In this document: piece after piece, positions 11,596 to 55,072 of the stretch
Layout of the letters: each line of letters starts with the position of its first letter
Position numbering within the stretch: position 1 is the first letter of the stretch
Assembly (NCBI RefSeq): GCF_014647195.1
Contig: NZ_BMOS01000013.1
Coordinates: 13,389-72,343, forward strand
DNA from: Oceanobacillus indicireducens
Lineage (GTDB): Bacteria > Bacillota > Bacilli > Bacillales > Amphibacillaceae
Length of the DNA stretch: 58,955 bases
Reading direction: 5' to 3'
Position numbers and translations under genes: made by a program
Notes under the pieces: generated by a model
Told to the model about the DNA's origin: nothing
The model's input: the letters and a program-made list of their open reading frames with translations, nothing else
The model's database searches: none

Positions 11596-11659
11596 ATAAA
11601 ATGAAACTTCATTCAGTGGGGTTTCTTATCTCCCACACTGAATGTTAGTTGAACAGAAA
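11596..11659 (+). repeat. Family A repeat, hairpin-1 half only
   Basis: Contains TGAAACTTCATTCAGTGGGG, then the complementary CACTGAATGTTAGTTGAACAG. It stops where the second hairpin would begin. Confidence 0.8.
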
Positions 11660-11723
11660 ATATTTCGCTTAAAACTCATCAAATAAACAATAGTCAACGC
11701 CTATACGTTGCATAAAAGGGTAA

Positions 11724-11757
11724 CAAAAAACACGGTACTAAGTTGCTGCACCGTGCT
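11724..11757 (-). terminator. Terminator downstream of the PepSY genes
   Basis: Minus-strand hairpin CACGGT/ACCGTG (11731-11736 with 11750-11755), followed by six T. It ends transcription from the two-component/PepSY cluster. Confidence 0.75.
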
Positions 11758-11774
11758 TTTCTTCTTTTTTGCAA

Positions 11775-12512
11775 TTAATCATCTAAATCTATATCAACAA
11801 CGAGCACTTCTCCCGTGTAGGCATCGATTTCGATTTCTGCCTCTCCTTCGGGGCTCTCAATTTCGATTTCATATATTAAGCGACCATCTTCTCTATCCAA
11901 ATCTATATCATCCACCACACCGGAGAACTGTTTTAATGCAATTTCAATTGCTTTTTCTTGACTGATTGTTGATTTCCGCTCATCGGATTGCTTCTTGGAA
12001 TCATCATTGGGACCTTTTTTTGCTTCGTTATCTTCTTTTTTCGCTTCTTCTGCATCCTCTTGTTTTGGTGCAGTTACCGTTTTACGCTCGGTCTCTTTTG
12101 TATCTTCAGTTGCTTTTTCTTTCATTTCCAAGTCTGTTTCTTTTTTATTTGTAGCTGATGCTTCTCTCTTATCTCCATTTTCCTTCTGCTTATCCGTAGT
12201 CATATCTTTCTTTTCATCTGCTTTAGCTAGCCATTTTTCTTCCAGCTTTAATACCTCACCCGAGTTCCCGTCAATTACTAATTCATATCCTTGCCCGTCG
12301 ATGACAATCTCCACTTCATAGATAGGATTTGTCTCTTGTTCATCTAACTTAAGTGCAGTGATTTCCCCGGGATATTGGGCCTCCACTTTTTCCGTAACTT
12401 CTTTCTCGGTTAGGTCAGGTCCGGCTGAAACCGATAAATTTTGACTGAAAATAAGCCCTAATACAGTGGCAATCGCCATAGCCCCAATTGCCATTAGCAA
12501 TTTTTTATTCAT
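11775..12512 (-). CDS. Secreted/anchored protein with two PepSY domains and a charged linker
   Basis: 245 residues: N-terminal hydrophobic signal/anchor (about 5-25), first PepSY domain (about 35-92, GQGYELVIDGNSGEVLKLEEKW), then a roughly 90-residue low-complexity linker of Glu, Lys, Asp and Thr. A second PepSY domain (about 180-245) contains EDGRLIYEIEIESPEGEAEI and DAYTGEVLVVDIDLDD. The C-terminal domain closely matches the neighbouring PepSY gene, so the pair arose by duplication. PepSY domains often inhibit or chaperone proteases or act with sensor kinases; the position behind a kinase suggests a signalling partner. Confidence 0.88.
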   Translation of the reverse strand: MNKKLLMAIGAMAIATVLGLIFSQNLSVSAGPDLTEKEVTEKVEAQYPGEITALKLDEQETNPIYEVEIVIDGQGYELVIDGNSGEVLKLEEKWLAKADEKKDMTTDKQKENGDKREASATNKKETDLEMKEKATEDTKETERKTVTAPKQEDAEEAKKEDNEAKKGPNDDSKKQSDERKSTISQEKAIEIALKQFSGVVDDIDLDREDGRLIYEIEIESPEGEAEIEIDAYTGEVLVVDIDLDD

Positions 12513-12537
12513 TATGACCCCCTCCTAGCTTAGCTAA

Positions 12538-12921
12538 TTAGTCATCCCAGCTGTCATCATCTTGTTCGATTTCCACTTCGATAATCTCACCTGTCATTGC
12601 ATCAAGTTCGATTTCTGCTTCATGCGTACCATCTCTTAATTCAACCTCATAAATCAATCTGCCGTCATCCTTGTCGAGTTCAATTTCCGTCACTTTACCT
12701 TCGAATTCGGTTAAAGCAATTTGCTTTACTTCTTCAATCGAAAGCACACCTGCAAATGGATCCTGATTTTCCACTGTTTTTTCCTTCGTTTCTTGTACTT
12801 CTTCCGTTTCACTCGCTGCAACAATCGGCTCTGTCGGTGCAGCGTTCGACTGATAAGCAGTAAAACCAATGACCAATGCTATCGTCAATGTCCCAATTCC
12901 ATATCCTAACTTTTTATTCAT
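12538..12921 (-). CDS. Exported PepSY-domain protein, YkoI-like
   Basis: 127 residues with an N-terminal membrane segment, a short acidic linker and one PepSY domain ending in DGRLIYEVELRDGTHEAEIE and DAMTGEIIEVEIEQDD. The start at 12921 follows AAAGGAGG; a reading from 12954 lacks a ribosome site. It sits between the kinase gene and a longer PepSY paralogue on the same strand. B. subtilis also has a PepSY gene (ykoI) beside its ykoGH two-component genes, which supports a functional link. Confidence 0.88.
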   Translation of the reverse strand: MNKKLGYGIGTLTIALVIGFTAYQSNAAPTEPIVAASETEEVQETKEKTVENQDPFAGVLSIEEVKQIALTEFEGKVTEIELDKDDGRLIYEVELRDGTHEAEIELDAMTGEIIEVEIEQDDDSWDD

Positions 12922-13029
12922 TTTATTTCCTCCTTTGATCTCTGCTTTTATCATAGCTCGGGCAGATAATAGGAGGATGTGAGGAAGATTAGAAAATGCT
13001 GAGAAACGAATCTTTACGGAGAGTAAACG

Positions 13030-14394
13030 TTATTTTTCATCGGGCCCTTCTTTCATAACCGGTAAAACCATTGTAAAAGTCGAGCCCTCCCCTAGGGTAC
13101 TGTCCACAGTTAGCTTTCCTTGATGGTCTTCGGCAATTTCCCTAGCGATAGACAGGCCGAGCCCACTGCCACCGGTCCCTCTGCTTCTTGCTTTATCGAC
13201 CCGGTAAAACCGCTCGAATATCCGTTCCTGATCTTCTGGAGCTATTCCACTTCCATAATCTTTCACAGAATAAATCACGTCACCATTATAAGTAAATAGA
13301 CTTACTGTAATTTTATCTTCACTGTATTTCAAGGCATTTTCAATTAAAATATAAATAATTTGTTCGAGCTGCCCAGCATTCCCTAAAACATGTATCGTTT
13401 CGGTATTTTTATGAAATTCGATTTCCCTATTATAAGCCTGCTTGAATGTTGTAATCGAATGCTCGATCAGTTGAACAAGTTCGACACGTTCGTGGACAAC
13501 ATTTTCTTTATTTTTCGCCAAAGATAAAAGTTGCTCCACTAGCCGTTTCATCCGGTCGGCTTCCGAATCAATTACTTCAATTGATTCGTCCAGTAGTTCA
13601 GGGTTGTCCTTCCCTCTTCTTGCAAGCAGCTGGGCGTAACTCTTCACAATCTGTATCGGAGTTTTCAATTCATGGGAAGCGTTGGATACAAAGTCTTCCT
13701 GTCTTTCGTAGTTATCCTTTAGCTGATCAATCATTTCGTTGAAGGTAACTTCCATTTCATAGAGCTCATCCTTGGAACGGTCTCTGTGATCGATCTTCTC
13801 CCATTTCCGCTCCTTAATGTTCGTTTTCATCGTCCGTGTCAGTTCTTCAATAGGATTGAGAAGGAAACGGCTCAGGATATTACTACCGATAACCGTCGGG
13901 ATGAGGATAACGAGTGATACGATGATAAGTACGTAAAATAAAATTCGCATCGTATTCGTAAGAGCCACTAAATTATCAGACATCTGCAGCGTGACAACAC
14001 TCCCATCATGCCAAATGATCGGCTTAGTTACAACAGCGACATGGACACCGCGCTCTGGCCGTTCAATTTCATGAGTCTCCGCAGTCTGGAACGCACCTTC
14101 CAATGTCCGATAAGCCTCTCCTTTACGTTTAAATTCTATTGCCCGCTGGTCACTCGAGAACACCTTCACCATCCCATTTGCCGGTAGAAAAGCATTGATT
14201 ACTTCACTCGCCTCTTCCCGGCTCGTCGTCTGTGAGAGATGCTCGATCAGAACATCAGTCTGCAAGGATAGTTCCGTTAATTGGCCATCCGTTGCATTTT
14301 TATAAAAGAGAAAATAGATGAATGTATTGACAAGGATGAGCATACTTAGAATGAGCACACTGGAAAACAAGCGGATTTTCGTCCTTAATTTCAT
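13030..14394 (-). CDS. Sensor histidine kinase, YkoH/ArlS-like
   Basis: 454-residue membrane kinase: TM1 (about 9-31), extracytoplasmic sensor domain of roughly 120 residues, TM2 (about 150-172) and HAMP. The HisKA H-box is NASHELKTPIQIVKSYAQLL, followed by an HATPase domain with N box NALKYSED, G1 DYGSGIAPEDQERIFERFYRV and G2 GGSGLGLSIA. It overlaps the regulator gene by 4 bases (ATGA), so they are translationally coupled. PepSY proteins downstream may act with its sensor domain. The signal is unknown. Confidence 0.9.
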   Translation of the reverse strand: MKLRTKIRLFSSVLILSMLILVNTFIYFLFYKNATDGQLTELSLQTDVLIEHLSQTTSREEASEVINAFLPANGMVKVFSSDQRAIEFKRKGEAYRTLEGAFQTAETHEIERPERGVHVAVVTKPIIWHDGSVVTLQMSDNLVALTNTMRILFYVLIIVSLVILIPTVIGSNILSRFLLNPIEELTRTMKTNIKERKWEKIDHRDRSKDELYEMEVTFNEMIDQLKDNYERQEDFVSNASHELKTPIQIVKSYAQLLARRGKDNPELLDESIEVIDSEADRMKRLVEQLLSLAKNKENVVHERVELVQLIEHSITTFKQAYNREIEFHKNTETIHVLGNAGQLEQIIYILIENALKYSEDKITVSLFTYNGDVIYSVKDYGSGIAPEDQERIFERFYRVDKARSRGTGGSGLGLSIAREIAEDHQGKLTVDSTLGEGSTFTMVLPVMKEGPDEK

Positions 14395-15083
14395 TGTTCA
14401 AGGTCCTTTATCGTATAGCCTACCCCGCGCACTGTTTGAATAACCGCGGCCTCAAAACCTTTATCCACTTTTTGCCGCAAGTAGCGGATATAGACGTCGA
14501 CAACATTTGTATCACCGTAATAATCGAACCCCCAAACTTGTTCAATCAGCTGCTCCCTTGTCAGGACAATGTTTTTATTTTGCAATAAACAGACGAGCAG
14601 ATCGAATTCCCTTGGTGTAAGATCGATTTGCACTTCGCCTCTTGAAACTTCTCGGGCGCTCGGATTCACTCTCAAATCAGCAACAGTAAGGTCCTCGTTA
14701 TTCTCCTTCTTCGCTTTCGGCCGGCGTAAAAGAACGCGGATCCGCGCTAATAATTCCTCAATCTGGAAAGGCTTCGTAATATAATCATCCGCCCCAAGGT
14801 CGAGACCACTTACCTTATCATGAATTTCATCCCTTGCTGTAAGTAGAACGATTGGTGTTTCCTCATCGAAACGACGGACTCTCCGCAACACTTCAAGACC
14901 GCTTAATTCAGGAATCATAATATCTAACAAGACAAGATCCCAGTTCTCTTCTTCTATAAGTCGCAACGCATCTTTCCCATTATCTGCGACACCTGTTTCA
15001 TAATTTTCATATTCGAGTTCGAGTTGCAGCACTCGGCTTAATTTTTGTTCATCTTCAATAATCAGGATTTTAGGTTTTGCCAT
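14391..15083 (-). CDS. OmpR-family response regulator, YkoG/ArlR-like
   Basis: 230 residues. Receiver domain with acidic pair IIEDEQ, phosphorylation Asp in LVLLDIMIPELSG, Thr in LLTARD and Lys in YITKPF. The winged-helix DNA-binding domain has LTPREFDLLVCLLQNKN and ends RYLRQKVD...IQTVRGVGYTI. ATG 15083 is preceded by AGGTG; the TTG reading from 15098 is rejected. It is first gene of a cluster continuing into the kinase and two PepSY genes. A palindrome overlapping its promoter suggests autoregulation. Confidence 0.92.
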   Translation of the reverse strand: MAKPKILIIEDEQKLSRVLQLELEYENYETGVADNGKDALRLIEEENWDLVLLDIMIPELSGLEVLRRVRRFDEETPIVLLTARDEIHDKVSGLDLGADDYITKPFQIEELLARIRVLLRRPKAKKENNEDLTVADLRVNPSAREVSRGEVQIDLTPREFDLLVCLLQNKNIVLTREQLIEQVWGFDYYGDTNVVDVYIRYLRQKVDKGFEAAVIQTVRGVGYTIKDLEQ

Positions 15084-15119
15084 ATTCACACCTGCCAATT
15101 TTAAGATTAATTACTTTCT

Positions 15120-15154
15120 ATTATACGCATAAATGCTTATCATGACGATAAGCA
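15120..15154 (-). promoter_or_regulatory. Promoter and palindromic operator of the response-regulator operon
   Basis: On the minus strand TATAAT occupies 15120-15125. The expected -35 position has no good match and is covered by a perfect palindrome, TGCTTATC-n5-GATAAGCA (15134-15154). A weak -35 under a palindrome suggests activator or autoregulator binding. The divergent VOC gene starts 30 bases to the right, so the site could affect both. Confidence 0.5.
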
Positions 15155-15184
15155 GAAGTTTTCATTTTACAAAGGAGGATTAGC

Positions 15185-15814
15185 ATGCTAGCAATTGATC
15201 ATCTTGTAATCGTTTCAAAGAATCCCGAAAAGGATGCCCAGCAGTTTGTTGAACAGCATCATGCAATCGCTATGGAAGGTGGAAAACATGAGAAATGGGG
15301 AACGTACAACTTCCTTGCTCACTTCCAAAATGACAGTTATATCGAATGGCTCGGAATTTTCGATGAGGAACTTGCTAGGAAAAGCAATCTCCCATTAGTG
15401 AGAAATACAGTTGATTCCCTCGATCAAGGAAGGACCGGACTCCTTACCTTTGCTTTACGGACGAGTAATCTAGATGCCCAGCTGACCTATTTTAAAGAAA
15501 ATCAGATCCCGTATAGTGGTCCGTATCCAGGAATGCGGAAGAAAATTGACGGTTCAACTCTATCTTGGAAAATGCTTTTTCCCGAAGACGCGGAGAATTT
15601 TCCATTTCTAATTGAATGGGGCGCAACAGAGAACAAGCCAGACGACGCTGCGAAAATCAATCCGCGTAATTTGAATGAGATCACAATCCCAACTGATCCA
15701 TCCAAGTACGAGGATGTCTTTCAGCTGAAAGTGCGTGACGATACAATCCAATTGGAGAATGGAAGACTTCTATTTACAAACGACGAGCAGTCTAATTTTA
15801 ATTTAAGTGAATAA
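15185..15814 (+). CDS. VOC/glyoxalase-like domain protein
   Basis: 209 residues of the Glyoxalase_3-type VOC family: MLAIDHLVIVSKNPEKDAQQF at the N-terminus (metal-ligand-type His in DHLV), then HEKWGTYNFLAHF and a second half around LTYFKENQIPYSGPYPGMRKKIDG. Start follows AAAGGAGG. The specific reaction is unknown. It is a single gene, divergent from the response-regulator operon, with its own terminator at 15838-15885. Confidence 0.85.
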   Translation: MLAIDHLVIVSKNPEKDAQQFVEQHHAIAMEGGKHEKWGTYNFLAHFQNDSYIEWLGIFDEELARKSNLPLVRNTVDSLDQGRTGLLTFALRTSNLDAQLTYFKENQIPYSGPYPGMRKKIDGSTLSWKMLFPEDAENFPFLIEWGATENKPDDAAKINPRNLNEITIPTDPSKYEDVFQLKVRDDTIQLENGRLLFTNDEQSNFNLSE

Positions 15815-15837
15815 GGAGAAAGATAAGGAATCGTAAT

Positions 15838-15885
15838 AAAGAAGCTTGCAATCAACTCAATTGTTAATCGCAAGCTTCTTTATAA
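15838..15885 (+). terminator. Terminator of the VOC gene
   Basis: 12-bp perfect stem AAAGAAGCTTGC/GCAAGCTTCTTT, long loop, short T-run. Confidence 0.75.
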
Positions 15886-15892
15886 ATGATAA

Positions 15893-16095
15893 GAAAGTAT
15901 AAAATAAAAATGCTTAGATAACTTAGGTATCCGGGGCTAGCCACGTCCGGCTCCAGCGCCCAGCAACTAGCAAACTTCACACTCCTCCAATCGATAAGTC
16001 AACATCAACTCACTGCCGTTCGTTGTGTTTCCTTTATCTCATTCCGGAGTGCTCCAGTTTGTACGTTGCTTAACGGGCGCTTCCGCCTTTGTTTA
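15893..16095 (+). repeat. Family B repeat, near-complete copy
   Basis: About 200 bp. Key words in order: ATAAAAATGC, GGCTAGCCACGTCCGGCTCC, AGCGCCCAGCAACTAG, CACACTCCTCCAAT, AAGTCAACATCAACTCACTG, TTTCCTTTATCTCATTCCGG, GGGCGCTTCCGCCTTTG. The copy at 52795-52952 is the same with an internal deletion; 58229-58421 is an inverted variant. It ends 4 bases before the ydbP stop. Confidence 0.85.
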
Positions 16096-16098
16096 ATA

Positions 16099-16419
16099 TT
16101 ACCCTAATTGTTGTTGTAAAAATTCCGTTACTTCTTCTGGAGTCTTCGTATAAGCACTGTGCTGATGCGCTAGTTTTTCCCCATTTTGGAAAATTAGTAC
16201 GCTCGGAATTCCCATTACTTCATACTTTTCAGCAATTCCTTCTATCTCATCAATATTCACTTCGTACCAGTTATAATTGTTGAACTCATCCATTACCTGG
16301 CCCGAGAACATATCAAAGCGTCTGCAATCCGGGCACCAATTAGCGAAGAACTTAATAATGACCGGCTCCGCACTTTGTATAACTTCATCAAATCTGGCTT
16401 GCGTTGTGATTAGTTCCAT
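16099..16419 (-). CDS. ydbP: Thioredoxin-like protein YdbP
   Basis: 106 residues, the same length as B. subtilis YdbP. Thioredoxin fold with an active site FFANWCPDCRR (C29, C32), so C-P-D-C in place of C-G-P-C, and cis-Pro motif MGIPSVLIF. Cytosolic, no signal peptide. Probably a disulfide reductase or peroxiredoxin partner; the altered dipeptide should shift its redox potential. It lies downstream of popT on the same strand with a 48-bp gap. Confidence 0.85.
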   Translation of the reverse strand: MELITTQARFDEVIQSAEPVIIKFFANWCPDCRRFDMFSGQVMDEFNNYNWYEVNIDEIEGIAEKYEVMGIPSVLIFQNGEKLAHQHSAYTKTPEEVTEFLQQQLG

Positions 16420-16467
16420 CTGAATTCTCCTTTTATACCCTCTTTAAATTATTTTCTTATATTGTAA

Positions 16468-17280
16468 CTATTTATACTCTATTCGTCCAAGGATATACGC
16501 TGTTAAAAGCCCTGTGAAAAATGTAAGAACACTAACAAAGAACATACCAACCGTTTGTGGTATTCCCGGGAAAACGACGAAAACTGAACCTGCAACAAGT
16601 CCTATTGCGGCGGCAAATGTAATAGTGAAATAGTTTCGTAAAAAATAGCCGACAATTCTGCTCATGATGACAAAGCCGATCGCAATCCCAAGCCCAGTCA
16701 CAATGATGATATCAAATTTTAAATTACTGACGGCAGCAATGATTGTCGGATATACACCAAGAACAAGAAACAAGAATGAGCCACTTATCCCTGGAAGAAT
16801 CATTGCCGAGCTGCCGATTATACCTGAAACAAATAGATATGCATATGTTTTCGGGGTAATATTCGTAATAATTTCCCCTTCTCCAACATTCACAAGCCCT
16901 ATTGTAGCAATAATGATAACACCGACCAGCATCACACCGATATGCTGCAGACGAAATGAATTCTTCGCATCAGCTTTATAAAATAAATAAGGCAGGACGC
17001 CAAGAATCAGTCCGAGGAAGAAAAATAATGTCGGCATCGGATGGTGGATAAACAACCATTCGATCACTTTCGCAAATACGAACAACGCTGCTACCATGCC
17101 AATCCCAAGCGGAATGAGAAATCCCAAATACTTCTTCCAGTCCTTACTAAAAAAGCCGTTAATTGCTTCAATCAACCGCTCATAAATTCCAAGTAAAAGT
17201 GCAATGGTACCGCTACTGATTCCCGGGACGACCTCTGTAGCACCCATCAATATCCCTCGATATATATTTTTCCATTCCAT
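16468..17280 (-). CDS. popT: DUF368 / PopT-family undecaprenyl-phosphate translocase
   Basis: 270-residue polytopic membrane protein. The two halves carry an inverted-repeat motif: GATEVVPGISSGTIALLLGIYE at residues 13-34 and MILPGISGSFLFLVLGVY about 145 residues later. These are the DUF368 signatures. The family was recently shown to recycle the C55-phosphate lipid carrier across the membrane for peptidoglycan and teichoic acid synthesis (PopT). Start follows AAGGAG. Flanked by ydbP and a CapA-like lipoprotein gene on the same strand. Confidence 0.88.
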   Translation of the reverse strand: MEWKNIYRGILMGATEVVPGISSGTIALLLGIYERLIEAINGFFSKDWKKYLGFLIPLGIGMVAALFVFAKVIEWLFIHHPMPTLFFFLGLILGVLPYLFYKADAKNSFRLQHIGVMLVGVIIIATIGLVNVGEGEIITNITPKTYAYLFVSGIIGSSAMILPGISGSFLFLVLGVYPTIIAAVSNLKFDIIIVTGLGIAIGFVIMSRIVGYFLRNYFTITFAAAIGLVAGSVFVVFPGIPQTVGMFFVSVLTFFTGLLTAYILGRIEYK

Positions 17281-17356
17281 GCGATGAATCTCCTTAACGT
17301 ATGTAAATTTAAATACATTTTACATCATACCAAAAAAGACTTGGCATGCCTATCTT

Positions 17357-17388
17357 AAGTGTGACCTTTCTTGGGACAGGCCACACTT
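17357..17388 (-). terminator. Hairpin after the capA-like gene
   Basis: Minus-strand stem AAGTGTGGCC/GGTCACACTT starting just after the stop codon; the T-run is about 16 bases farther on, so termination would be weak. Confidence 0.4.
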
Positions 17389-17391
17389 CCC

Positions 17392-18579: not shown

Positions 18580-18586
18580 TCATTTT

Positions 18587-18746
18587 TTATCACGCATTAA
18601 CGGTCTGTAATACCCCCACCTCTAAAGAACAAGAGGGAAGCCCCACATGTGAAGGTGGGATATACAGTCCGTAAATCCCTGATTCGGTTCAACTAACATT
18701 CAGTGAGGAAGGTAAGGATACCCCTACTGAATGAAGTTTCACTTTA
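18587..18746 (-). repeat. Family A repeat, full copy
   Basis: Begins TTATCACGCATTAACGGTCT, has the large hairpin 2 (CCCCCACCTCT... with ...AAGGTGGGATA), then TTCAACTAACATTCAG and ends CTGAATGAAGTTTCACTTTA (hairpin 1). Immediately upstream of the capA-like start. Confidence 0.9.
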
Positions 18747-18945
18747 TTAAGCATATGACTGAACAACTATTATTTTACTGCTTATAGGCTATTTGCTCAA
18801 TAGAAGGGAGGAAAATAAAATATCAATAAATTTTAGCTTCATAATGATAAACTGGATGGAATTGGATATAGTATAATAAGAGGAGACATTTCGGTTTATG
18901 ATGTGCAGATTATTAACAAAGGGATTATTTAATGGGGGAATCGTG

Positions 18946-19131
18946 GTGAAACGATATTTATCTGGAATTTTAATTGTAGCAAGTGTTCTCATCATTATTA
19001 TTGGCAATATGTTGGACCGATACTGGAGTGGCATTGCAGCATGGGGAGTTGCCATCATCTTACTTATTTTCGCCGCCTATTTTACAAAACACATCCCGAA
19101 TGATAAAAAGAAAAAGCCGAAAGAGCAGTGA
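18946..19131 (+). CDS. Small hypothetical protein with two membrane helices
   Basis: 61 residues starting at GTG 18946 (VKRYLSG), with GGGGGA 6 bases upstream. Two hydrophobic helices (about 4-20 and 27-45) and a lysine-rich tail DKKKKPKE. A longer reading from 18898 lacks a ribosome site. A TATAAT-like box lies near 18870. Not recognised; codon use and tail resemble small Bacillaceae membrane proteins. Confidence 0.6.
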   Translation: MKRYLSGILIVASVLIIIIGNMLDRYWSGIAAWGVAIILLIFAAYFTKHIPNDKKKKPKEQ

Positions 19132-28431: not shown

Positions 28432-28498
28432 AACAAAGGCGCTAAAGCCGGACGTGGCTAACCCTTGATACCTAAGTTCTCACGGTATTTTTATTTTA
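28432..28498 (-). repeat. Family B repeat, short form
   Basis: GGCGCTAAAGCCGGACGTGGCTA, then TGATACCTAAGTTCTCACGG and ATTTTTATTTTAT, like 9943-10018. It abuts a short family A element directly. Confidence 0.65.
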
Positions 28499-28549
28499 TC
28501 ATGCATTAACGGCCTGTAATACCCCCACTGAATGAAGTTTCACTTTATA
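28496..28549 (-). repeat. Family A repeat, short form
   Basis: TTATCATGCATTAACGGCCT joined to CCCCCACTGAATGAAGTTTC: the outer left arm of hairpin 2 is fused to the right arm of hairpin 1. The same junction occurs at 45454-45504. Confidence 0.8.
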
Positions 28550-28560: not shown

Positions 28561-28597
28561 TAAAAAAAGCTTACCTCCACTGGAAGTAAGCTTTTGT
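28561..28597 (-). terminator. Terminator of the cold-shock gene
   Basis: Minus-strand stem AAAGCTTAC/GTAAGCTTT followed by seven T in all. Confidence 0.85.
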
Positions 28598-28604
28598 ATT
28601 TGAA

Positions 28605-28802
28605 TTATAAACGAACTACGTTAGCCGCTTGTGGACCACGGTCGCCTTCAACGATTTCGAACTCAACTTCTTGACCTTCTTCTAAAGTCTTGAAGCCTTC
28701 AGCTTGGATAGCTGAGAAGTGTACGAATACGTCATCGCCATCTTCACGCTCGATGAAACCGAAACCTTTTTCTGCATTAAACCATTTTACTTTACCAGTC
28801 AT
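28605..28802 (-). CDS. Cold-shock protein (CspB/CspD type)
   Basis: 65-residue single cold-shock domain, nucleic-acid chaperone. RNP1 KGFGFIE and RNP2 VFVHF are intact; N-terminus [16 protein letters not shown]. Strong ribosome site AAGGAGG. A promoter at 28916-28944 predicts an untranslated leader of about 105 bases, typical for cold-shock mRNA thermosensing. Confidence 0.95.
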
Positions 28803-28915
28803 TTAAATGACCTCCTTTTCAATTTCGTGCAAAGTAATTGAATCTGTAATACTTTTACACCACTTGAAAAAGAGATCGTAAAGTATTTTTATTCCAATTC
28901 CCATTTGCACCTTCT

Positions 28916-34018: not shown

Positions 34019-34146
34019 GCTCTAATCCTCCAAAATGATTTCATTAGCTATATTTATTCTATAGCCCAGCTATACGTGCATGCATCTTTTAACACAATTA
34101 TACTTTTATATTTTATCATTAGGTGACCTAAGTGACAAAGGGGAAT

Positions 34147-34303
34147 AAAGTGAAACTTCATTCAGTGGGGAATCTTTTCCTCCCCACTGAATGTTAGTTG
34201 AACAGAATCACGCATTTACGGACTTGTATACCCCCACCTTCACATGATAGGCTTCCCTCATGTTTAGAGGTGGGAATATTACAGACCGTTAATGCGTGAT
34301 AAA
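34147..34303 (+). repeat. Family A repeat, full copy
   Basis: Hairpin 1 CATTCAGTGGGG/CCCCACTGAATG is perfect with an 11-base loop. After TTAGTTGAACAGA comes hairpin 2, with outer arms ATCACGCATT/AATGCGTGAT and inner CCCACCT/AGGTGGG. Lies between the toxin gene and ddl. Confidence 0.92.
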
Positions 34304-34408
34304 AAAAATAACCACCTAGTATCAATTAGTGTGGTTAACTCCATATTAATATCTAATACAGTATTTAATCATTCGGACTAGACGGTTAATTACCACCTAT
34401 ATTCTTAA

Positions 34409-36049: not shown

Positions 36050-36219
36050 CTTATACCCTTGTGGTGAAAGTCAACATCGGCTCAAGGAGAAAAGGAAGGC
36101 CGACTAAGAACGCGGGCCAAGGCCCAACTCACGTCTCCCCCTAAAGGGGCATGTTTCCTTTATCTCATTGCGTCGAAGTCCAATTCGGCCGTTCCTAAAC
36201 GGGCGATGTCACCTTTGAT
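36050..36219. repeat. Family B variant inserted between proS and its terminator
   Basis: Shares AAGTCAACATC, GGAAGGCC, CCCCCTAAAGGGGCATGTTTCC and GGGCG with 58229-58421 and 15893-16095. The segment including it is bracketed by 19-bp direct repeats (35937-35955 and 36204-36222, one mismatch). The right one contains the proS stop codon. Confidence 0.65.
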
Positions 36220-37659
36220 TTAATAAGCCTTCGCCCAAATAACCATCTCTTTCGCTGGTTTACCACAGCACACACAAGTTTCCGCTAACTTCTCTTGTTC
36301 AAAAGGAATACAGCGGGAGGTTGCGGTTGTTTCTTCTTGGATCTTCTCTTCACACGCTTCGTCTCCACACCACATTGCTTTTAGGAAACCGCCTTTTTCC
36401 TCAAGCATTTCTCTAAATTCTTCCATCGTTGTAACAGAAGTTGTCTTCTCGTTACGATGTGCGAGTGCCTTGTCGTAAAGGTTTTGCTGGACTTCATCAA
36501 GCAATTCCGGTAGACGCTTTTCCAGATCAGCAAGTGCGACAAATTCCTTCTCACCGGTATCACGGCGTACAAGGACAACTTGCTCCTTCTCAATATCTTT
36601 CGGTCCTAGTTCAATACGAACTGGGATTCCCTTCATTTCATATTCATTAAATTTCCAGCCTGGCATCTTGTCGCTTGCGTCAATATCGACACGAACAAGA
36701 CCTTTGAGCTGATCACGCAAGTCATACGCTTTATCTAGTACGCCTTCCTTATGTTGTGCAACCGGAATAATCATCGCCTGTGTCGGAGCAATCTTCGGAG
36801 GTACAACTAAGCCGCGGTTGTCCCCGTGAACCATAATCAATGCTCCCATAATTCTTGTGGATAGCCCCCAAGATGTCTGGTGAACGAATTGACTATCCCC
36901 GTTCTCATCCAAGTACGTAATATCAAAAGCTTCTGCAAAGCCAGAACCGAAATGATGGCTCGTTCCAGATTGCAATGCTTTCCCGTCATGCATTAACGCT
37001 TCAATCGTTAACGTATATTTTGCTCCAGCAAATTTTTCACTCTCTGTCTTCTTTCCCTTATATACCGGGATCGCCATATAGTTTTCAACTAAGTCTGCAT
37101 AAGTATCAAGCATTCTCGCTGTTTCAATTTCCGCATCTTTGTCTGTTGCATGTGCCGTGTGCCCTTCCTGCCAGTGGAATTCAGAAGAACGCAGGAATGG
37201 ACGAGTTGTCTTCTCCCAACGCACGACGTTCGCCCACTGGTTATAGAGCTTCGGAAGATCGCGATACGAATGAATGTGCCTTGAATAATATTCACAGAAC
37301 AATACTTCAGACGTTGGGCGGACAGCGATTCTTTCTTGCAGTTCTTCATCTCCGCCATGGGTCACCCAAGCTACTTCCGGCGCGAATCCTTCCACGTGAT
37401 CTGCTTCTTTCTGCAGCCAGCTTTCTGGAATAAACAATGGGAACTGCACATTCGTATGGCCCGATTCTTTAATCATGCGATCCAATTCATCTTTAATATT
37501 TTCCCAAATCGCATACCCGTATGGACGGATAATCATCGTCCCTTTAATTAAACCGTAATCGACTAACTCGGCCTGTTTCACAACATCGGTATACCACTGT
37601 GCAAAGTCATCTTCCATCGCGGTAATCTTTTCCACAAAGTCTTTATTCTTTTTAGACAA
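36220..37659 (-). CDS. proS: Prolyl-tRNA synthetase, eukaryote/archaea-like type without editing insertion
   Basis: 479 residues, class IIa. Motif 2 region [20 protein letters not shown] ... [19 protein letters not shown], motif 3 [17 protein letters not shown], and a C-terminal zinc-binding domain ([16 protein letters not shown]) ending in Tyr, typical of the archaeal-type ProRS. It lacks the large editing insertion of B. subtilis ProRS (about 560 residues), so it may be a second enzyme as in the B. cereus group. TTG 37659 is chosen, 6 bases after AGAGGTG; the GTG at 37668 overlaps that site. Controlled by a T-box upstream. Confidence 0.94.
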
Positions 37660-37689: not shown

Positions 37690-37960
37690 TGTGTTCAAAA
37701 AGGAGGATAAAAAGGACCGAGGTCGGCTAAGTTCGCAACGTCCTGTTGCAATGCCGACACTAGCACGTCCTGTGCGTCGAAATTCGAGGCGGCGAAAGCT
37801 CCCGGCACCGGAATGTACGTTAGTAGGTACATGAGGAGCGGAAAAGCGAGCCAACGAGTTTCCACAGGAGGTGGTGAGTTCTACGTTGTCCACAGGACGT
37901 GGACGATCTTAGTAGAACCTCCCCTTTCGCGAAGTTTCATTTTTACCGGACTTTTTGAAC
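37690..37960. repeat. Family B-related GC-rich element in the proS leader
   Basis: About 270 bp between the T-box terminator and the proS start. Shares GTCGGCTAAG, ACGTCCTG and ACGTCCTGTGCGTCGA with 1-135. Contains a nested hairpin TTCTAC...TGTCCAC/GTGGAC...GTAGAA. It is part of the leader of any read-through proS mRNA. Confidence 0.55.
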
Positions 37961-37976
37961 AACCTCTTTTACCAAT

Positions 37977-38235
37977 AAAAAAAGACCCCTATCATATAAA
38001 AAGGGACCTTCGTGTGGTGGTACCACCCTTATTTGCATGAAAAGTCATGCACACTTCCTTCGAATAACGGCTCTACACCGCGCACATCTTACAGACTGTC
38101 TCTTCGTCTATACGAAGTGCGAACTCAGACGGCAGGTTCTAACTTCTGTCTCCCGGAAATTCGCACCGACCATTTCCTCTCTGAAAAAGACAGCAAATTG
38201 TACTATTCCGCATCAACGTTTCCACATATTTTCTC
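37977..38235 (-). promoter_or_regulatory. T-box riboswitch (proline, CCU specifier) for proS
   Basis: Minus-strand leader. Stem I has AG-rich bulge AGAGAGG and distal CGGTGCGAA; the 3' side reads AGAACCTGCC, giving a CCU specifier. The antiterminator carries the T-box word AAGGGTGGTACCACC at about 38014-38029. The terminator pairs GGTCCCT/AGGGGTC (38008-37984), followed by seven T. Uncharged tRNA-Pro should allow read-through into proS. Confidence 0.92.
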
Positions 38236-39643: not shown

Positions 39644-39697
39644 GAAAGGACACTCCCATTCTATCTATTAACTACGGTGTAACTGGCTAGTAACAGC

Positions 39698-39760
39698 CCG
39701 ATTGGTTCAACTCAACAAACTTCAGTGGATTAAAAAATGCACATTAAATGAAAGTCCAAT
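39698..39760 (-). repeat. Degenerate family A hairpin-1 half
   Basis: GGTTCAACTCAACAAACTTCAGTGG and TTAAATGAAAGTCCAATTTA match the end of family A elements loosely; it lies directly before a full copy, so two elements are in tandem. Confidence 0.5.
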
Positions 39761-39920
39761 TTATTACGCACTAACGGTCTGTAATATCCCCATCTCTAAA
39801 AATGGGTTAAGCTCAAGATGTGAAGGTGGGGGATATACAGTCCGTAAATCCCTGATTCTGTTCAACTAACATTCAGCCGGGGGAGATAAGGAAACCCCCA
39901 CCGAATGAAGTTTCACTTTA
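39761..39920 (-). repeat. Family A repeat, full copy
   Basis: TTATTACGCACTAACGGTCT, central CCCCATCTCT with AGGTGGGGGATATACAGTCC, TTCAACTAACATTCAG, and CCGAATGAAGTTTCACTTTA at the end. Confidence 0.9.
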
Positions 39921-44356: not shown

Positions 44357-44398
44357 CGTCAATGCCTCTCATCCTTTTATCACAAATTCCTTTTACGT

Positions 44399-44553
44399 TA
44401 ATCACGCATTAACGGTCTGTAATATCCCCTTATCTAAACGTGAGGGAAACCTAAAATGTAAGGGGGATTAACAGTCCGTAAATACCTGATTCTGTTCAAC
44501 TAACATTCAGCGGGGGTGGTAAGGATACTCCACTGAATGAAGTTTCACTTTAT
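44399..44553 (-). repeat. Family A repeat, full copy
   Basis: TAATCACGCATTAACGGTCT, hairpin 2 core CCCCTTATCT/AAGGGGGATT, ACAGTCCGTAAATACCTGAT, TTCAACTAACATTCAG, CTGAATGAAGTTTCACTTTA. Between hisJ and murB. Confidence 0.9.
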
Positions 44554-45409: not shown

Positions 45410-45453
45410 GAATCCTCGCTCCTTTATTCTTGTCCTTCTGTTAATCTATTATT

Positions 45454-45504
45454 TTATCACGTATTAACGGTCTGTAATACCCCACTGAATGAGTTTCACT
45501 TTAT
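45454..45504 (-). repeat. Family A repeat, short form
   Basis: TTATCACGTATTAACGGTCT fused to CCCCACTGAATGAGTTTCAC. Same junction as 28496-28549, only about 50 bp long. Lies 22 bases before the his promoter. Confidence 0.8.
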
Positions 45505-46864: not shown

Positions 46865-46865
46865 T

Positions 46866-49362: not shown

Positions 49363-49379
49363 AGGAGAGGAGATTATTC

Positions 49380-50108: not shown

Positions 50109-50862
50109 AAAAATCATTCCCTGCCTCGATGTGAAGAACGGCCGAGTCGTCAAGGGACAACAATTTCAAAACATTCAAGAAGTCGCCGAGCCCGTAGAAC
50201 TTGCTAAGCGCTATAACAAGTCCTTAGCAGATGAGCTTGTTTTATATGATATTACAGCCTCCGTTGAGAAGAGAAATATTTTCCTTGATATCGTTGAAAA
50301 CATCGCCGCCGTCATTGATATTCCGTTTACAGTAGGTGGTGGTATACGCACCGTCCAGGATATTGAAAAAGTTTTACAAGCTGGAGCGGATAAAGTATCG
50401 ATCAATAGTGGAGCCATTGGAAATCCAGCATTCATTCAGGAAGCAGCAGAAGCATTCGGCAGCGAGAAAATCGTCTTTGCCCTTGATACAAAAGAAGTCT
50501 CTCCAGAAAAATGGAACGTTTTTTCCAGCGGAGGACGAAGCGATACTGGAATCGATGCGATCGAGTGGGCCATCAAAGGAGCGAACCTCGGAGCCGGTGA
50601 GATTGTTGTCAATGCGATTGATGACGACGGTGCAAAAACAGGTTATAATCTCGCGCTAACGAAAAAAATTGCGGAAGCCGTGGCTGTTCCCGTTGTTGCT
50701 AGCGGCGGGGCGGGAACATACGAACATTTTAAAGATGCTTTGACCGATGGCAGAGCAACTGGTGCCCTTGCAGCTTCAGTCTTCCATTACGGTGAAATTG
50801 ATATCCCAGAACTTAAAGCATATCTCGAACAAGAAAATATAGACGTAAGGAGAGGTAACTAA
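50098..50862 (+). CDS. hisF: Imidazole glycerol phosphate synthase cyclase subunit HisF
   Basis: 254-residue TIM barrel. [17 protein letters not shown] with catalytic Asp, [42 protein letters not shown] with the second catalytic Asp, [11 protein letters not shown]. Normally accepts ammonia channelled from HisH, which is missing from this operon. ATG 50098 overlaps the hisA end by 11 bases; a reading from 50086 is rejected. Confidence 0.95.
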
Positions 50863-50863
50863 A

Positions 50864-51505
50864 ATGAGCGTGCAACCAGATGATTTAACCTATGACGATC
50901 AAGGACTCCTTCCTGCCATTGTACAGGATGCAGCAAGCGGGAAAGTACTGACCCTTGGCTTTATGAATAAGGAATCCCTTGAGAAAACATTGGAGACGGG
51001 AGAAACATGGTTTTATTCAAGATCCCGAGAAACCCTTTGGAATAAAGGAGAAACATCCGGTAACAAACAACTCGTACAGAAAATCAGCTATGACTGTGAC
51101 AAAGATGCCTTATTAGTACAGGTACAGCCTTTAGGACCTGCTTGTCATACGGGTGAAGATACATGCTTTTATCAAACAATGACCGAGACGGAATTACCAA
51201 TTTTCGATATCATCCCACAAGTGATTGCAAAGATTAAAGATCGCAGGAACAATCCAGTACCAGGTGCTTACACGACGTATTTATTTGATAAAGGGATCGA
51301 TAAGATGCTGAAAAAAGTCGGCGAGGAATCGAGTGAAGTCATTATCGCGGCGAAAAATGAGGATAAACGTGAACTGACGGCAGAGATTTCCGACCTCCTC
51401 TATCACCTGCTCGTAGTGATGGAAGAGTCTGGTGTGGCACTAAGTGATATTAAAGCGGAACTCATGGAAAGACATTTAGAAAAGGAAGGACAAAATCGTG
51501 AGTAA
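50864..51505 (+). CDS. hisI: Bifunctional phosphoribosyl-AMP cyclohydrolase / phosphoribosyl-ATP pyrophosphatase HisIE
   Basis: 213 residues. N-terminal cyclohydrolase (about 10-110) with [40 protein letters not shown] and zinc-site [11 protein letters not shown]-terminal HisE domain (about 120-205) with [20 protein letters not shown] and [19 protein letters not shown]. Catalyses steps 2 and 3. Start after AAGGAGAGG. Overlaps hisC. Confidence 0.96.
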
Positions 51506-52559
51506 GTTTTGGAGTAATGCAGTAAAACGAAGTAACCCATATATTCCAGGCGAACAAGTGAACAATCCGGAAATCATCAAATTGAATAGAAATGAGAATC
51601 CATATCCTCCCTCCCCACTCGTTCTTAAAGCGATTAAAAAGGAAGTCGGTCAATCACTTCGACTCTACCCCAGCCCGACTGTTGATACGTTGAGGGAGGA
51701 AATTGCTAACCTTTACGACTTAGGGAAGGAAAATGTGTTTATCGGAAATGGTTCCGATGAAGTACTCGCTTTTTCCTTTATGGCCTTCTTTGAACCTGGG
51801 CAAGCGATTCGTTATCCGGATATTTCCTATAGCTTCTATCCGGTCTATGCAAAGTTATTTGATATTCCGGTTGAAGAAATTCCCTTACAGGACGACTTTT
51901 CTATCAAGCCAAGTGATTATTATGATTCAGAAGGCGGTGTGATTTTCCCGAATCCGAATGCACCGACGAGTTTGTACCTTAACTTGGCAGGTATTGAAGA
52001 GATTTTGCGACATAATCAAGACCGCATCGTAATTGTGGATGAAGCTTATATCGATTTTGCCGAAGAATCCGCGGTTGGATTGCTCAAGAAATACGATAAT
52101 TTACTCGTCATCCAAACAATGTCAAAATCCCGTGCCCTTGCTGGTCTGCGCTTAGGATTCGCCCTTGGCTCACCCGAATTGATTGAAGGACTCGTGCGTA
52201 TCAAGGATTCCTTCAACTCCTATACAATCGACCGTTTAGCTATTGCCGGCGGGGTTGCAGCAATAAAAGACAAAGCATATTTTACAGAGAAGAAGGAAAA
52301 GGTTATTGCGACCCGAAGCTGGGTAACAGAAGAATTGGAAAAGCGCGGATTCACTGTTCTACCTTCCCAGACGAACTTTTTATTTGTCACCCATCCGGAG
52401 AAAGATGCGGCGCGGCTGTACGAACAATTAAAAGAAAATCTTATACTAGTCCGTTACTTCAACAAACCGGAAATCGCGAACTTCATCCGTATTACCATCG
52501 GGACAGATGAAGAGATGAAGACATTCTTTCATGTATTAAATCGGTTGGAAAACTTTTAA
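51498..52559 (+). CDS. hisC: Histidinol-phosphate aminotransferase HisC
   Basis: 353-residue PLP enzyme, class II-like. [59 protein letters not shown] and PLP Lys in [21 protein letters not shown] start with AAGGA 7 bases upstream, overlapping the hisI stop. Last gene of the operon; a family A repeat begins two bases after its stop. Confidence 0.95.
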
Positions 52560-52560
52560 T

Positions 52561-52718
52561 AAAGTGAAACTTCATTCAGTGGGGAATTCCTTCCCTCCCC
52601 ACTGAATGTAAGTTGAACAGAATCAGGTATTTACGGACTGTATATCCCCCACTTTAACATTTTGGTTTTCCCTCATGTTTAGAAGTGGGGGTATTACAGA
52701 CCGTTAATACATGATAAA
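52561..52718 (+). repeat. Family A repeat, full copy
   Basis: AAAGTGAAACTTCATTCAGT, hairpin 1 CATTCAGTGGGG/CCCCACTGAATG, AGTTGAACAGAATCAGG, hairpin 2 core CCCCCACTT/AAGTGGGGG, and ATTACAGACCGTTAATACAT. Between hisC and its terminator. Confidence 0.92.
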
Positions 52719-52758
52719 AGATGCAGCACTCTTATGATTCAAGTGCTGCATCTTTTTT
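52716..52758 (+). terminator. Terminator of the histidine operon
   Basis: Perfect stem AAAAGATGCAGCACT/AGTGCTGCATCTTTT (52716-52730 with 52742-52756), followed by T. Confidence 0.92.
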
Positions 52759-52794
52759 CTTAGATATGAATTACAAAATAGAAATACTGTGGAT

Positions 52795-52952
52795 AAATAA
52801 CTAAAGATGCTAGTATTAGCCACGTCCGGCTCCAGCCCCACACTCCTCCAATCAATAAGTCAACATCAACTCACTGCCGTTCGTTGTGTTTCCTTTATCT
52901 CATTCCGGAGTGCTCCAGTTTGTACGTTGCTAAACGGGCGCTTACGCCTTTG
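52795..52952 (+). repeat. Family B repeat, internal-deletion copy
   Basis: TTAGCCACGTCCGGCTCCAG jumps straight to CACACTCCTCCAATCA; after that it matches 15893-16095 nearly base for base to GGGCGCTTACGCCTTTG. Ends 3 bases before the stop of the next gene. Confidence 0.85.
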
Positions 52953-52954
52953 TT

Positions 52955-53668
52955 TTAGATATGTTTTTCAATTTCTGCTTCTTCTTTCAGTTCAGCAATT
53001 CGGTTTTCAAGAAGTTCACTTTGCTTTTGCTCAGCAAGTGACTGTCTGATCATATCTTCAACTTCTTCCAGTTCACCGACTTCTTCACTTTCTTCTTTCA
53101 GCAGATTATACTGTTCTTCTACTTCTTTGTCCGTTACTTCAGCTTCAAATTCCTCTTCAATGTACTTAATTGTAATTAAATCATTCGTCAACTGGGTACG
53201 GAATTCTTCTTCGGATAGATCATATTCCTTAAGCAGTGTATCAATTGCTTCCTCTCCATTTGTCTCAATGATACTGTCAATTTCTTCTTGAGTATCCTCT
53301 TCGGTTACTTCAATTCCACTATCAAGAGCGTCTTGGCGAATTAATTCCTGTTCTGTGATAATGTCAATCGTCTCATTTTTTAGCGTATCAAGATCACTGA
53401 CATCTTGCCCATACATATGGTACATTGTCTTTAGTTGTCTATATATATTATTGTATTGCTCGCCAGTAACTTCGTCGCCATTGATGCTCACAACGACTGT
53501 ATCGGCGTCAACTTTCTCGTCTTCGGTGATTTCAACTTCTTCCTGTTGCTGTGCTTCATTTTCTTTTTCAGCTGCTGGGTCATCGGCTTTATCTGCGTCA
53601 TCTTTACCACAAGCTGCTAACATAAGTGTTAGAACAAGCGTGAAGATGAGCAGCATTTTTTTCTTCAT
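52955..53668 (-). CDS. Lipoprotein with SurA N-terminal chaperone-like domain
   Basis: 237 residues. Lipobox LMLAACG near residue 20, a 30-residue acidic Ala/Glu/Gln linker, then a SurA_N-type helical domain: VVVSINGDEVTGEQYNNIYRQL, ITEQELIRQDALDSGIEVTEED, LSEEEFRTQLTNDLITIKYI. There is no parvulin (rotamase) domain, so unlike PrsA it cannot be a prolyl isomerase; probably an extracytoplasmic chaperone-like factor. Start after TTAGGAGGG. Confidence 0.85.
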   Translation of the reverse strand: MKKKMLLIFTLVLTLMLAACGKDDADKADDPAAEKENEAQQQEEVEITEDEKVDADTVVVSINGDEVTGEQYNNIYRQLKTMYHMYGQDVSDLDTLKNETIDIITEQELIRQDALDSGIEVTEEDTQEEIDSIIETNGEEAIDTLLKEYDLSEEEFRTQLTNDLITIKYIEEEFEAEVTDKEVEEQYNLLKEESEEVGELEEVEDMIRQSLAEQKQSELLENRIAELKEEAEIEKHI

Positions 53669-53732
53669 AAAAATATTTCCCTCCTAATTGGTCTTTCTCT
53701 AGTAAACCACAAATCGGTACCTGATTTCAATT

Positions 53733-53771
53733 AAAAAAGCAACCTCTTCATCGATAGAAGAGGTTGTTTTT
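53733..53771 (-). terminator. Terminator of yclQ
   Basis: Stem AACCTCTTC/GAAGAGGTT with T6 on the minus strand and T5 on the plus strand. Confidence 0.85.
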
Positions 53772-53822
53772 CAAGTAATGGGTTGAATACCTAGGAAAAT
53801 CTGTAATGAAATGGATATTTGT

Positions 53823-54818
53823 TTATTCGATTGTTTCGTCGATTTGTTTAGCCATTTCAGATACGGATACAAGTCCGCCGCCTGATAGGTACCAGAACTC
53901 TGGGTTCAAATAATGGATATTGTCATTTTTATATGCGTTCGTATTTTCTACTAGCTCGTTTTCAACAAGTTGTTTCGCACTTTCTGACTCGGAACCACCA
54001 ACAACAGCTCCACGGTCAATGACATAAAGAATATCCGGATTCTGTTCCATAACGTACTCAAAGGAAACATTCATACCGTGAGTCGATGCTTCAATGTTTT
54101 CATCTATCGGTTTAACTCCGAATACATCGTGGATAATACCGAAACGAGAGCTTGGACCATAGGCACTGATTTTGTCATCATTAGCTAAGATGATTAATGC
54201 TTTTTCGTCACTTGCTTCAGCTCTTTCGTTCAAATCGGCAATAATGTCATCAATTGCTGTCAATTCCTCTTCTACTTCTGCTTCTTTATCAAAAATCTGA
54301 CCTACCGTTTCCATGTTATTTTTGAATGAATTCATGTAATCTCCATCATCTACACCAAGGTGAATGGTTGGTGCAATTTCAGCAAGTTGATCATATAGGG
54401 AAGCTTGACGACCCGAAATAATGATTAAATCTGGATCAATCTCAGAGATCTTCTCAAAATCTGGCTCTTTCAGGCTACCAATATTCTCATATTCATCTGA
54501 TTCGAAAGTATCCAAATAGCTTGGAAGTGTACCACCTTTTGCCACACCTGTAACACTTTCTACACCAAGTTTATCTAATGTATCTAGGATACCAAAGTCA
54601 AATACTACAACTGATTCTGGGTTTACAGGAACTTCTGTTGTATCTAGTTCATGCTCAACTGTAACTGTTCCAGCGGCGGCTTCTCCCCCTCCGCCTCCTA
54701 TTTCTTCTGTATCGGTGTCTGTATTTGTTTCAGCACCTTTATTATCATCATCCGAACCGCAAGCGGCTAGGAATAGAAGGATCAATCCAATCATTAAAGC
54801 ATACGTAAATTTCCTCAT
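53823..54818 (-). CDS. yclQ: Siderophore (petrobactin-type) ABC transporter substrate-binding protein, YclQ-like
   Basis: 331 residues. Lipobox FLAACG near residue 20, low-complexity Asp/Thr/Gly linker, then the class III binding fold of the FepB/YclQ family (TTEVPVNPESVVVFDFGILDTL, DPDLIIISGRQASLYDQLAEIAP, YEVMEQ.. ending with FWYLSGGGLVSVSEM). Delivers a catecholate ferric siderophore to YclNO. Separated from yclP by 527 bases holding a family A repeat, although it is on the same strand; it may have its own promoter. Confidence 0.9.
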   Translation of the reverse strand: MRKFTYALMIGLILLFLAACGSDDDNKGAETNTDTDTEEIGGGGGEAAAGTVTVEHELDTTEVPVNPESVVVFDFGILDTLDKLGVESVTGVAKGGTLPSYLDTFESDEYENIGSLKEPDFEKISEIDPDLIIISGRQASLYDQLAEIAPTIHLGVDDGDYMNSFKNNMETVGQIFDKEAEVEEELTAIDDIIADLNERAEASDEKALIILANDDKISAYGPSSRFGIIHDVFGVKPIDENIEASTHGMNVSFEYVMEQNPDILYVIDRGAVVGGSESESAKQLVENELVENTNAYKNDNIHYLNPEFWYLSGGGLVSVSEMAKQIDETIE

Positions 54819-54917
54819 AAGTAGTTACTCCCTTTTGTACAATTTTTAAGCTTATTTAAAAAGCTTATATATAATTATTAACTATAGCTATATCATTCCA
54901 TGCAGTAGTAGGGAGAT

Positions 54918-55072
54918 AAAGTGAAACTTCATTCCGTGGGGAATTCCTTACTCCCACTGAATATTAGTTAAACAGAATCAGGTATTTACGGACTGTATAT
55001 TCCCACCTTGATATTTTGGTTTTCCCTCTTGTTTAGAGGAAGGGGGTATTACAGACCGTTAATACGTGATAA
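54918..55072 (+). repeat. Family A repeat, full copy
   Basis: AAAGTGAAACTTCATTCCGT, hairpin 1 with slightly eroded arms, TTAGTTAAACAGAATCAGG, hairpin 2, ATTACAGACCGTTAATACGT. Splits yclP from yclQ. Confidence 0.9.

Follow-up and report, generated by a model that had tools for sequence, protein, structure and literature searches.

A folded, gene-free repeat of Oceanobacillus indicireducens: a probable bcr1-type mobile element placed at ATAAA and often beside terminator hairpins

The intergenic regions of Oceanobacillus indicireducens harbour a small, gene-free repeat that is probably a non-autonomous mobile DNA of the type of bcr1, a repeat described from the Bacillus cereus group. It was followed up from a window of 58,955 nt (the whole stretch analysed, from contig NZ_BMOS01000013.1 of a draft genome of 3.87 Mb), which holds six full copies of 155-161 bp and three reduced ones, in both orientations. 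The original prediction, made from the letters of this window, had given the positions of the six full copies and had noted several reduced ones and both orientations; the full copies are found where it placed them. The unit is built as GTGAAACTT, hairpin 1, TTAGTTGAAC, hairpin 2 and GATAAA, and its target is ATAAA, often with a hairpin close by. The mechanism we propose is that a recombinase supplied in trans would recognise the folded ends, either single-stranded or extruded, and would be directed to the combination of a hairpin and TTTAT.

With up to three mismatches allowed, a 22-mer from the left end occurs 157 times in the whole genome and one from the right end 160 times. As the reversed control of each gives 0 occurrences, the repeat family is not a chance pattern. 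A census of copies covering 1.21 Mb, or 31% of the host genome, yielded 73 copies with both ends (53 full, 7 intermediate and 13 short at 51-54 bp), along with single ends (22 left-only and 7 right-only). The figure of about ten copies given at first applies to the window alone. A length of 140-175 bp is seen in 53 of the 73 two-ended copies, as in bcr1-type elements (near 155 bp). Aligned over 32 genomic copies, the plan reads TAAA/GTGAAACTTCATTCAGTGGGG, loop, CCCCACTGAATG TTAGTTGAACAGAATCAGG, hairpin 2 and CCGTTAATRCGTGATAAA. The short copies have the left part CAGTGGGG fused to the right part GTGGGGGTATTACAG, which matches a deletion between two GTGGGG repeats, and they would be the products of such an event. 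As independently mobile units they find no support; the short copies between hisJ and hisZ have lost different parts of their interior in the two species compared, and this speaks for deletion at the site itself.

Throughout the siting counts, open reading frames (ORFs) of at least 90 aa serve as the proxy for genes. No contact with such an ORF is seen for 35 of the 53 full copies. The other 18 all have an overlap below 30%; only 12.5% of random 158-mers are equally free of ORFs. Array members were counted singly in this tally and in that of gene pairs below, so the tallied copies are not all independent events.

Three kinds of evidence (empty sites, an exact unit and tandem arrays) suggest that the element has moved. 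The nearest comparisons come from O. alkalisoli and O. luteolus, whose HisZ proteins are 86% and 72% identical to that of the window, while eight other Oceanobacillus reach 49-55%. Empty orthologous sites, which the original prediction had called for, were found in both. At 44398, both species have an empty site, with a few mismatches at the junction. At 52560, the right end of the element lies against a terminator-like hairpin; by eye, O. alkalisoli has a similar hairpin without the element, preceded by CTAAAAAAGATGC and not by TAAA(element)AGATGC. The hisJ-hisZ site at 45453 is empty in O. luteolus, and the O. alkalisoli copy there has a different internal deletion.

The boundaries of the unit are given by the short copy at 28495, which is inserted in another dispersed repeat, family B. 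When its flanks are joined, they span the junction in 14 matches to other family-B copies of the same genome, with TATAAAATAAAA intact in 10 of the 14 and the longer GAAACTATAAAATAAAA in 5. These empty versions read TATAAA/ATAAAA, so the inserted unit is exactly GTGAAAC...GATAAA. On these comparisons, the element is directly preceded, on its 5' side, by an ATAAA that the empty site also has and that reads TTTAT on the opposite strand. Since the right end of the element is ATAAA too, each insertion restores the target, and arrays run head to tail with one ATAAA per junction. In the censused 1.21 Mb, all 14 directly adjacent pairs are in the same orientation and have one ATAAA in common at each junction; a four-copy array lies at C37:11569-12185, and loci L264, L265 and L286 of other genomes hold comparable tandems.

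In the O. indicireducens genome, 50 copies have a free left flank; ATAAA is the left pentamer of 42 of them and the right pentamer of 38. The figures for 54 copies of other genomes are 51 and 43. Five left pentamers of the own genome do not start with A. Both GTAAA and both TTAAA are partnered on the right by ATAAA, and the single GTACA by GTAAA. Five copies have a right pentamer that does not start with A, and their left pentamers are ATAAA (three), ATTAA and GTACA (one each). With the first bases thus mismatched, duplication of a target base does not, as a rule, account for the first position.

The resemblance among copies varies with the genome. Median identity among the copies compared is 93-95% in G112, G219 and G136 (93.6% over six copies in G136), 89% in the genome of the window, 85% in G274 and 78% in G023; outside the window genome these copies were drawn from the top matches, as were 5 of the 11 own copies. 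Pairwise values within G112, G219 and G136 range from 88.6 to 97.5%. Taken together, the many copies, the empty sites, the exact unit and the tandems agree with the predicted dispersed palindromic element mobilised in trans.

The second part of the target is the hairpin. The right end of the element is often set against an A-tract and a hairpin, so that on the opposite strand it stands just behind an intrinsic terminator hairpin and its T-tract. At a threshold of -10 kcal/mol, picked after the values were seen, the 40 nt to the right fold at or below it in 16 of 50 own copies and the left flank in 2 of 50, the left window beginning a few bases farther from the element than the right one. The same threshold is reached at 157 of 1496 control intergenic ATAAA sites. 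In other genomes, where both windows abut the element, a hairpin is seen at the right flank of 14 of 54 copies and at the left of 0 of 54 (p = 5e-5). When the threshold is set at -8 kcal/mol, right against left becomes 20/50 vs 3/50 in the own genome and 18/54 vs 1/54 in the others. The 54 copies omit the tandem-flanked ones (L245/L268, L260, L264-L266, L286), duplicate loci, own copies, L036, L051, L052, L086, the copies in L180-L236, and those of plasmids and viruses. Several of the right-flank hairpins consist of A-tract, hairpin and T-tract and have the appearance of bidirectional intrinsic terminators; the 34146 copy, for instance, has an A-tract and then a hairpin of -12.1 kcal/mol beyond its right end.

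When only sites are compared whose right-hand neighbour is a gene with its 3' end facing the site at no more than 150 bp, the right-flank hairpin (at or below -10 kcal/mol) is present at 12 of 27 copies vs 66 of 317 controls (Fisher p 0.008). Convergent gene pairs flank 20 of the 53 full copies as compared with 139 of 795 intergenic regions, and are thus enriched, whereas divergent pairs are depleted (5 of 53 vs 143 of 795). The siting rule appears to be new, as no earlier description of it was found in the available portions of the literature.

It was further observed that the stems of the element change while its ends stay alike in the species examined. The comparison across genera used a sequence-only alignment of 15 copies, about one per genus (12 genomes in 12 genera, two named plasmids and one IMG/VR contig; the Peribacillus copy L239 was kept even though its right part fails to align). 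In this set, 92.5% of the cells pair, and 20 of the 41 stem pairs show two-sided change. The two-sided cells number 50 against a shuffled mean of 15.2, a value that none of 500 shuffles reaches, and sliding the partners by 1-3 columns leaves 7-11. The excess of compensatory change that had been named as a test is, therefore, present. A second set of 20 copies (15 from Oceanobacillus, three from other genera of the family, one from another family and one from a viral contig) has two-sided change in 14 of 34 pairs, with 43 cells vs 15.4 shuffled and 2-6 slid. On these alignments, both hairpins are kept by compensatory changes, with the terminal sequences and a T.T mismatch of hairpin 2 nearly fixed.

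The original prediction had read the shared mismatches of hairpin 2 as a sign of recognition, and this holds for one of them. The T.T mismatch occurs in 32 of 32 own-genome copies, in 18 of the 20 copies of the genus and family set and in 13 of the 15 of the cross-genus set; being kept in all three, it counts as truly conserved. The A.A mismatch, by contrast, is present in 29 of 32 own copies and in only 1 of 20 in the genus and family set. It was rejected as a recognised feature, since a mismatch so nearly confined to one genome marks recent common descent. Two paired changes of hairpin 1 were also noticed among siblings of the same genome: CCATAGG/CCTATGG against CCATCGG/CCGATGG (L275, 1541-1695) and CAATCCG/CGGATTG against CAATCAG/CTGATTG (L281, 1342-1499). 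Selection and hairpin-templated repair are suggested alternatives for these two. No Rfam family matches the window copies at the gathering threshold, and none matches 34100-34350 at E<=1.

The element is widespread. By blastn, 34 of 58 genomes match, including the own genome and 25 of 27 congeners. The covariance-model search of relatives that had been recommended, run with a model from 20 copies, finds matches at E<=0.001 in 100 of the 299 sampled genomes of the order and in 59 of 116 genera, some of the 100 genomes resting on a single weak match near 1e-4. Copies are also present on plasmids of Pseudalkalibacillus and Peribacillus and in 26 IMG/VR contigs, 24 of them apparently at one site. 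The IMG/VR copies, of the form ATAAAGTGAAACTTTAATCAGTGGGG...TTAATGCGGGATAAA, appear to be bcr1-like; no record of the B. cereus group was seen among the plasmid or phage matches. A further copy lies in CP079755, which was submitted under the name of a Klebsiella grimontii plasmid (L237, 6002-6092), by either transfer or mixed assembly. Some relatives carry extra hairpin modules or other repeats inside hairpin 1, the spacer or hairpin 2 (L186, L196, L180, L181, L183, L226 and L228).

Among known repeats, the closest in description is bcr1, of which the element is probably a wider relative, short of proven membership. According to the portions of the sources available, bcr1 belongs to the group A repeats of B. 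cereus (bcr1-bcr3), with 11 to 130 copies per genome and a mean of 39 (PMC6542083, PMC3446304). It is 147-167 bp long with a conserved fold (PMC2267715), it is described as similar to miniature inverted-repeat transposable elements (MITEs) and as partly transcribed (PMC3446304), and it has TTTAT repetitions, a possible mobility resembling site-specific recombination and a distribution restricted to the B. cereus group (PMC6542083). The likeness lies in the length, the tens of copies and the TTTAT (ATAAA) at both ends; furthermore, both repeats are intergenic, of high copy number, variable in position between relatives and devoid of a transposase gene. They differ in that bcr1 is described, in the portions available, only from the B. 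cereus group, whereas the present family occurs in 59 of 116 sampled genera, and in that neither the siting at terminator hairpins nor the covariation across genera is found in those portions. A distribution of the bcr1 kind beyond the B. cereus group was sought in the same literature, and none was found there. Classical DDE MITEs are likewise short, non-autonomous, intergenic and high in copy number; the ends of the present element, unlike theirs, are not inverted repeats (GTGAAACTT... vs a reverse complement TTTATCACG...) and have direct ATAAA on both sides.

Certain observations weigh against the reading as a mobile element of this type. Movement is deduced from comparison and was not witnessed directly, and the comparisons with O. 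alkalisoli at the 39760 and 54917 sites are not clean. The TAAA is identical at both ends, which fits a target-site duplication and a fixed right end alike, and the copy with GTACA and GTAAA, having a G in common, would fit a duplicated first base. An adjacent hairpin is found in only about one third of the copies, and part of the siting bias may come from the survival of copies close to gene ends, a matched control leaving the effect standing. As for the fold, covariation within the own genome is slight (2 two-sided cells vs 0.2 expected), the further pair types of the 20-copy set number 37 vs 34.7 shuffled, with 67 of 500 shuffles reaching that value, and the structures of the 15- and 20-copy tests were predicted from the very alignments that were tested. 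Lastly, no moving enzyme came out of the searches of Y1, integrase and end-flanked genes at the loci examined. Left and right ends 250-5000 bp apart around a gene are absent from the 1.21 Mb, bar one chance match; the check named in the original prediction, for a transposase gene bordered by these hairpins, thus found none in that part of the genome. The lone pair, 2.7 kb apart, arises from a right-end sequence that occurs by chance within a gene we take to be thiM-like. Similarly, no gene-bearing parent lies downstream of 20 partial matches in relatives. Copies in the same orientation 1.4 kb (L248) and 3.1 kb (L282) apart do enclose ORFs, in which nothing recombinase-like was seen by eye, no family search having been made.

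Who, then, moves the element? For an intact Y1 gene, a reverse transcriptase and an IS110 transposase alike, the searches came up empty in one or more of the copy-bearing genomes. The IS110 transposase, of the bridge RNA route, has no match in four of the nine carriers tested, namely the own genome, G219, G073 and G257. A tyrosine recombinase acting on the folded ends in the manner of integron cassettes, possibly a host enzyme of the Xer type, is unlikely on the whole, though it survives best among the alternatives. The short core common to both ends, the tandem junctions and the hairpin ends with a fixed mismatch would all suit it. Such recombinases are present in 14 of 14 control genomes, with 8 matches in the own genome, and a host Xer-type enzyme would explain the absence of a linked gene. 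On the other side, element ends lie near none of the 8 own integrase loci, and a core of the attC type is not established.

The Y1 transposases (IS200/IS605, RAYT-like), which the original prediction had named as possible movers, would move the element as single-stranded DNA of a PATE or REP/RAYT kind, with TnpA or RAYT acting in trans 3' of ATAAA. The plan does fit, with subterminal hairpins and a fixed mismatch, a short left target whose sequence recurs as the fixed right end, and hairpin-rich targets. PATEs and REPINs with RAYT are also small, palindromic, gene-less, moved in trans and attached to a short fixed left target. Furthermore, the own genome has two Y1 genes, and a Y1 match of some kind is seen in 18 of the 20 element-bearing genomes tested and in 48 of 58 relatives. 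Nevertheless, the ends are missing where this route would place them. Neither of the two own genes carries them, and a convincing left end was found at 0 of the 31 Y1 loci examined out of a longer list of matches (flanks of 1.5 kb, or less near a contig end), L068 having one chance match with 5 differences. One of the own genes, which we take to be RAYT-like (253 aa; L032, 1-2320), lies amid GGGACATTGGGGTCAGAG-type repeats of a different family (GGGACA...GGGGTCAGAG), and apparently forms with these a separate REP/RAYT system in the same genome. The closely similar copies of G136 stand beside Y1 fragments only (39 and 42 of 121 profile positions), in a 40-contig draft in which a gene may be missed. 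The single-contig congeners G013 and G027 have element copies and no Y1 match; the full-length copies of G013 are 70-78% identical to the best copy and hence old, which makes its lack of Y1 weak evidence. A Y1 mover is unlikely and finds no support at the loci examined.

Far less probable is a movement based on RNA, in which the RNA of the element would be copied by a reverse transcriptase in trans and aimed at terminators in the manner of group IIC introns. The siting behind a terminator hairpin and T-tract resembles the preference of those introns for such sites. A structured DNA target is described for them, as far as the available part of the source goes (PMC10190682). Of the 9 genomes tested, 7 have reverse transcriptase matches, that of the window among them. 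The other two, G274 and G073, have no such match and at least 9 copies each, the copies of G274 being not very young by their median identity. The strand behind the hairpin begins with CACG, and it has no group II intron ends or domain V; no ribozyme core was seen either, and the 34146 copy is without an Rfam match. A repeat that is immobile or has long been dead, retained for a role as regulatory RNA or bidirectional terminator and distributed by vertical descent and loss, is the least credible alternative: a stable fold with compensatory changes, full intergenic copies biased to the 3' ends of genes, and bcr elements that are partly transcribed in B. cereus and often lie in untranslated regions (UTRs), by the portion available (PMC3446304), would suit it, while the sites empty in sister species, the insertion in a family-B repeat with empty versions, the high identities within G112, G219 and G136 and the tandem arrays would refute it as the sole explanation, provided the empty sites stand, with a secondary RNA role possible.

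The reading as a bcr1-type mobile element, with the unit and the target given above, is thus the one preferred. A wider proposal is made more tentatively, as a possibility that falls short of being probable. By this proposal, bcr1 would be a single branch within a superfamily of folded elements without genes that extends through the whole order. Its members would owe their movement to a recombination system not yet described, possibly a host enzyme that is conserved, which reads hairpin ends and attacks TTTAT behind intrinsic terminator hairpins. Such targeting of terminator hairpins is not known outside the RNA-based group IIC introns.

The copies of the window and other features noticed in it are collected in the table. 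A decayed remnant of another subfamily, seen by eye beside the 39760 copy, indicates an older invasion. Family B, the second dispersed intergenic repeat, is composed of a GCCACGTCCGGCTCCAGCGCC part and a TGTTTCCTTTATCTCATTCC part and has further copies in the genome.

Table 1. Element copies and neighbouring features of the window. Scores are in bits from a covariance model whose own alignment contained these copies (full copies 163-195 bits).
Feature	Position	Strand	Remarks
Reduced copy, left end and hairpin 1 only	11597-11658	+	58.6 bits
Full copy, 161 bp	18586-18746	-	169.7 bits
Short copy, 53 bp, both ends, interior deleted	28495-28547	-	Inserted in family-B repeat
Full copy, 158 bp	34146-34303	+	176.3 bits; outer arm of hairpin 2 is ATCACG
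Full copy, 161 bp	39760-39920	-	170 bits
Full copy, 155 bp	44398-44552	-	167.4 bits; empty in O. alkalisoli and O. luteolus
Short copy, 51 bp	45453-45503	-	Between PHP-domain gene (hisJ-like) and hisZ
Full copy, 159 bp	52560-52718	+	195.2 bits; straight after the aminotransferase gene ending the his cluster
Full copy, 157 bp	54917-55073	+	163.4 bits
Decayed remnant, another subfamily of the element	39670-39735 (about)	-	CCACTGAAG..GTTGAACCAATCGGGCTGTTACTAGCCAGTTACACCG
Family-B repeats	9991-10038, 15895-16099, 28438-28499, 36113-36222, 52794-52960, 58230-58421		One hosts the 28495 short copy
Tandem array, period about 52 bp, eight registers	58421-58955		To the window end, straight after a family-B repeat
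Two Bacillaceae-1 RNA copies (RF01690), opposite orientations	37708-38225		Part of the stretch present in O. alkalisoli in different order
T-box leader	37999-38225	-	Beside the Bacillaceae-1 RNA copies
cspA thermoregulator-type 5' UTR (RF01766)	28564-28898	-	

How bcr1 moves has stayed an open question, because no transposase is known to be linked to it and because it seemed confined to one species group. If the present element is of the same kind, this mobility could be studied in more than 50 genera, some of whose species are harmless in the laboratory, with empty sites, a defined insertion unit and a target rule (ATAAA beside a terminator hairpin) as resources. The genomes at hand would then argue against three enzyme classes as the sole movers. 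Natural selection on folded DNA, too, would have a good example in this family.

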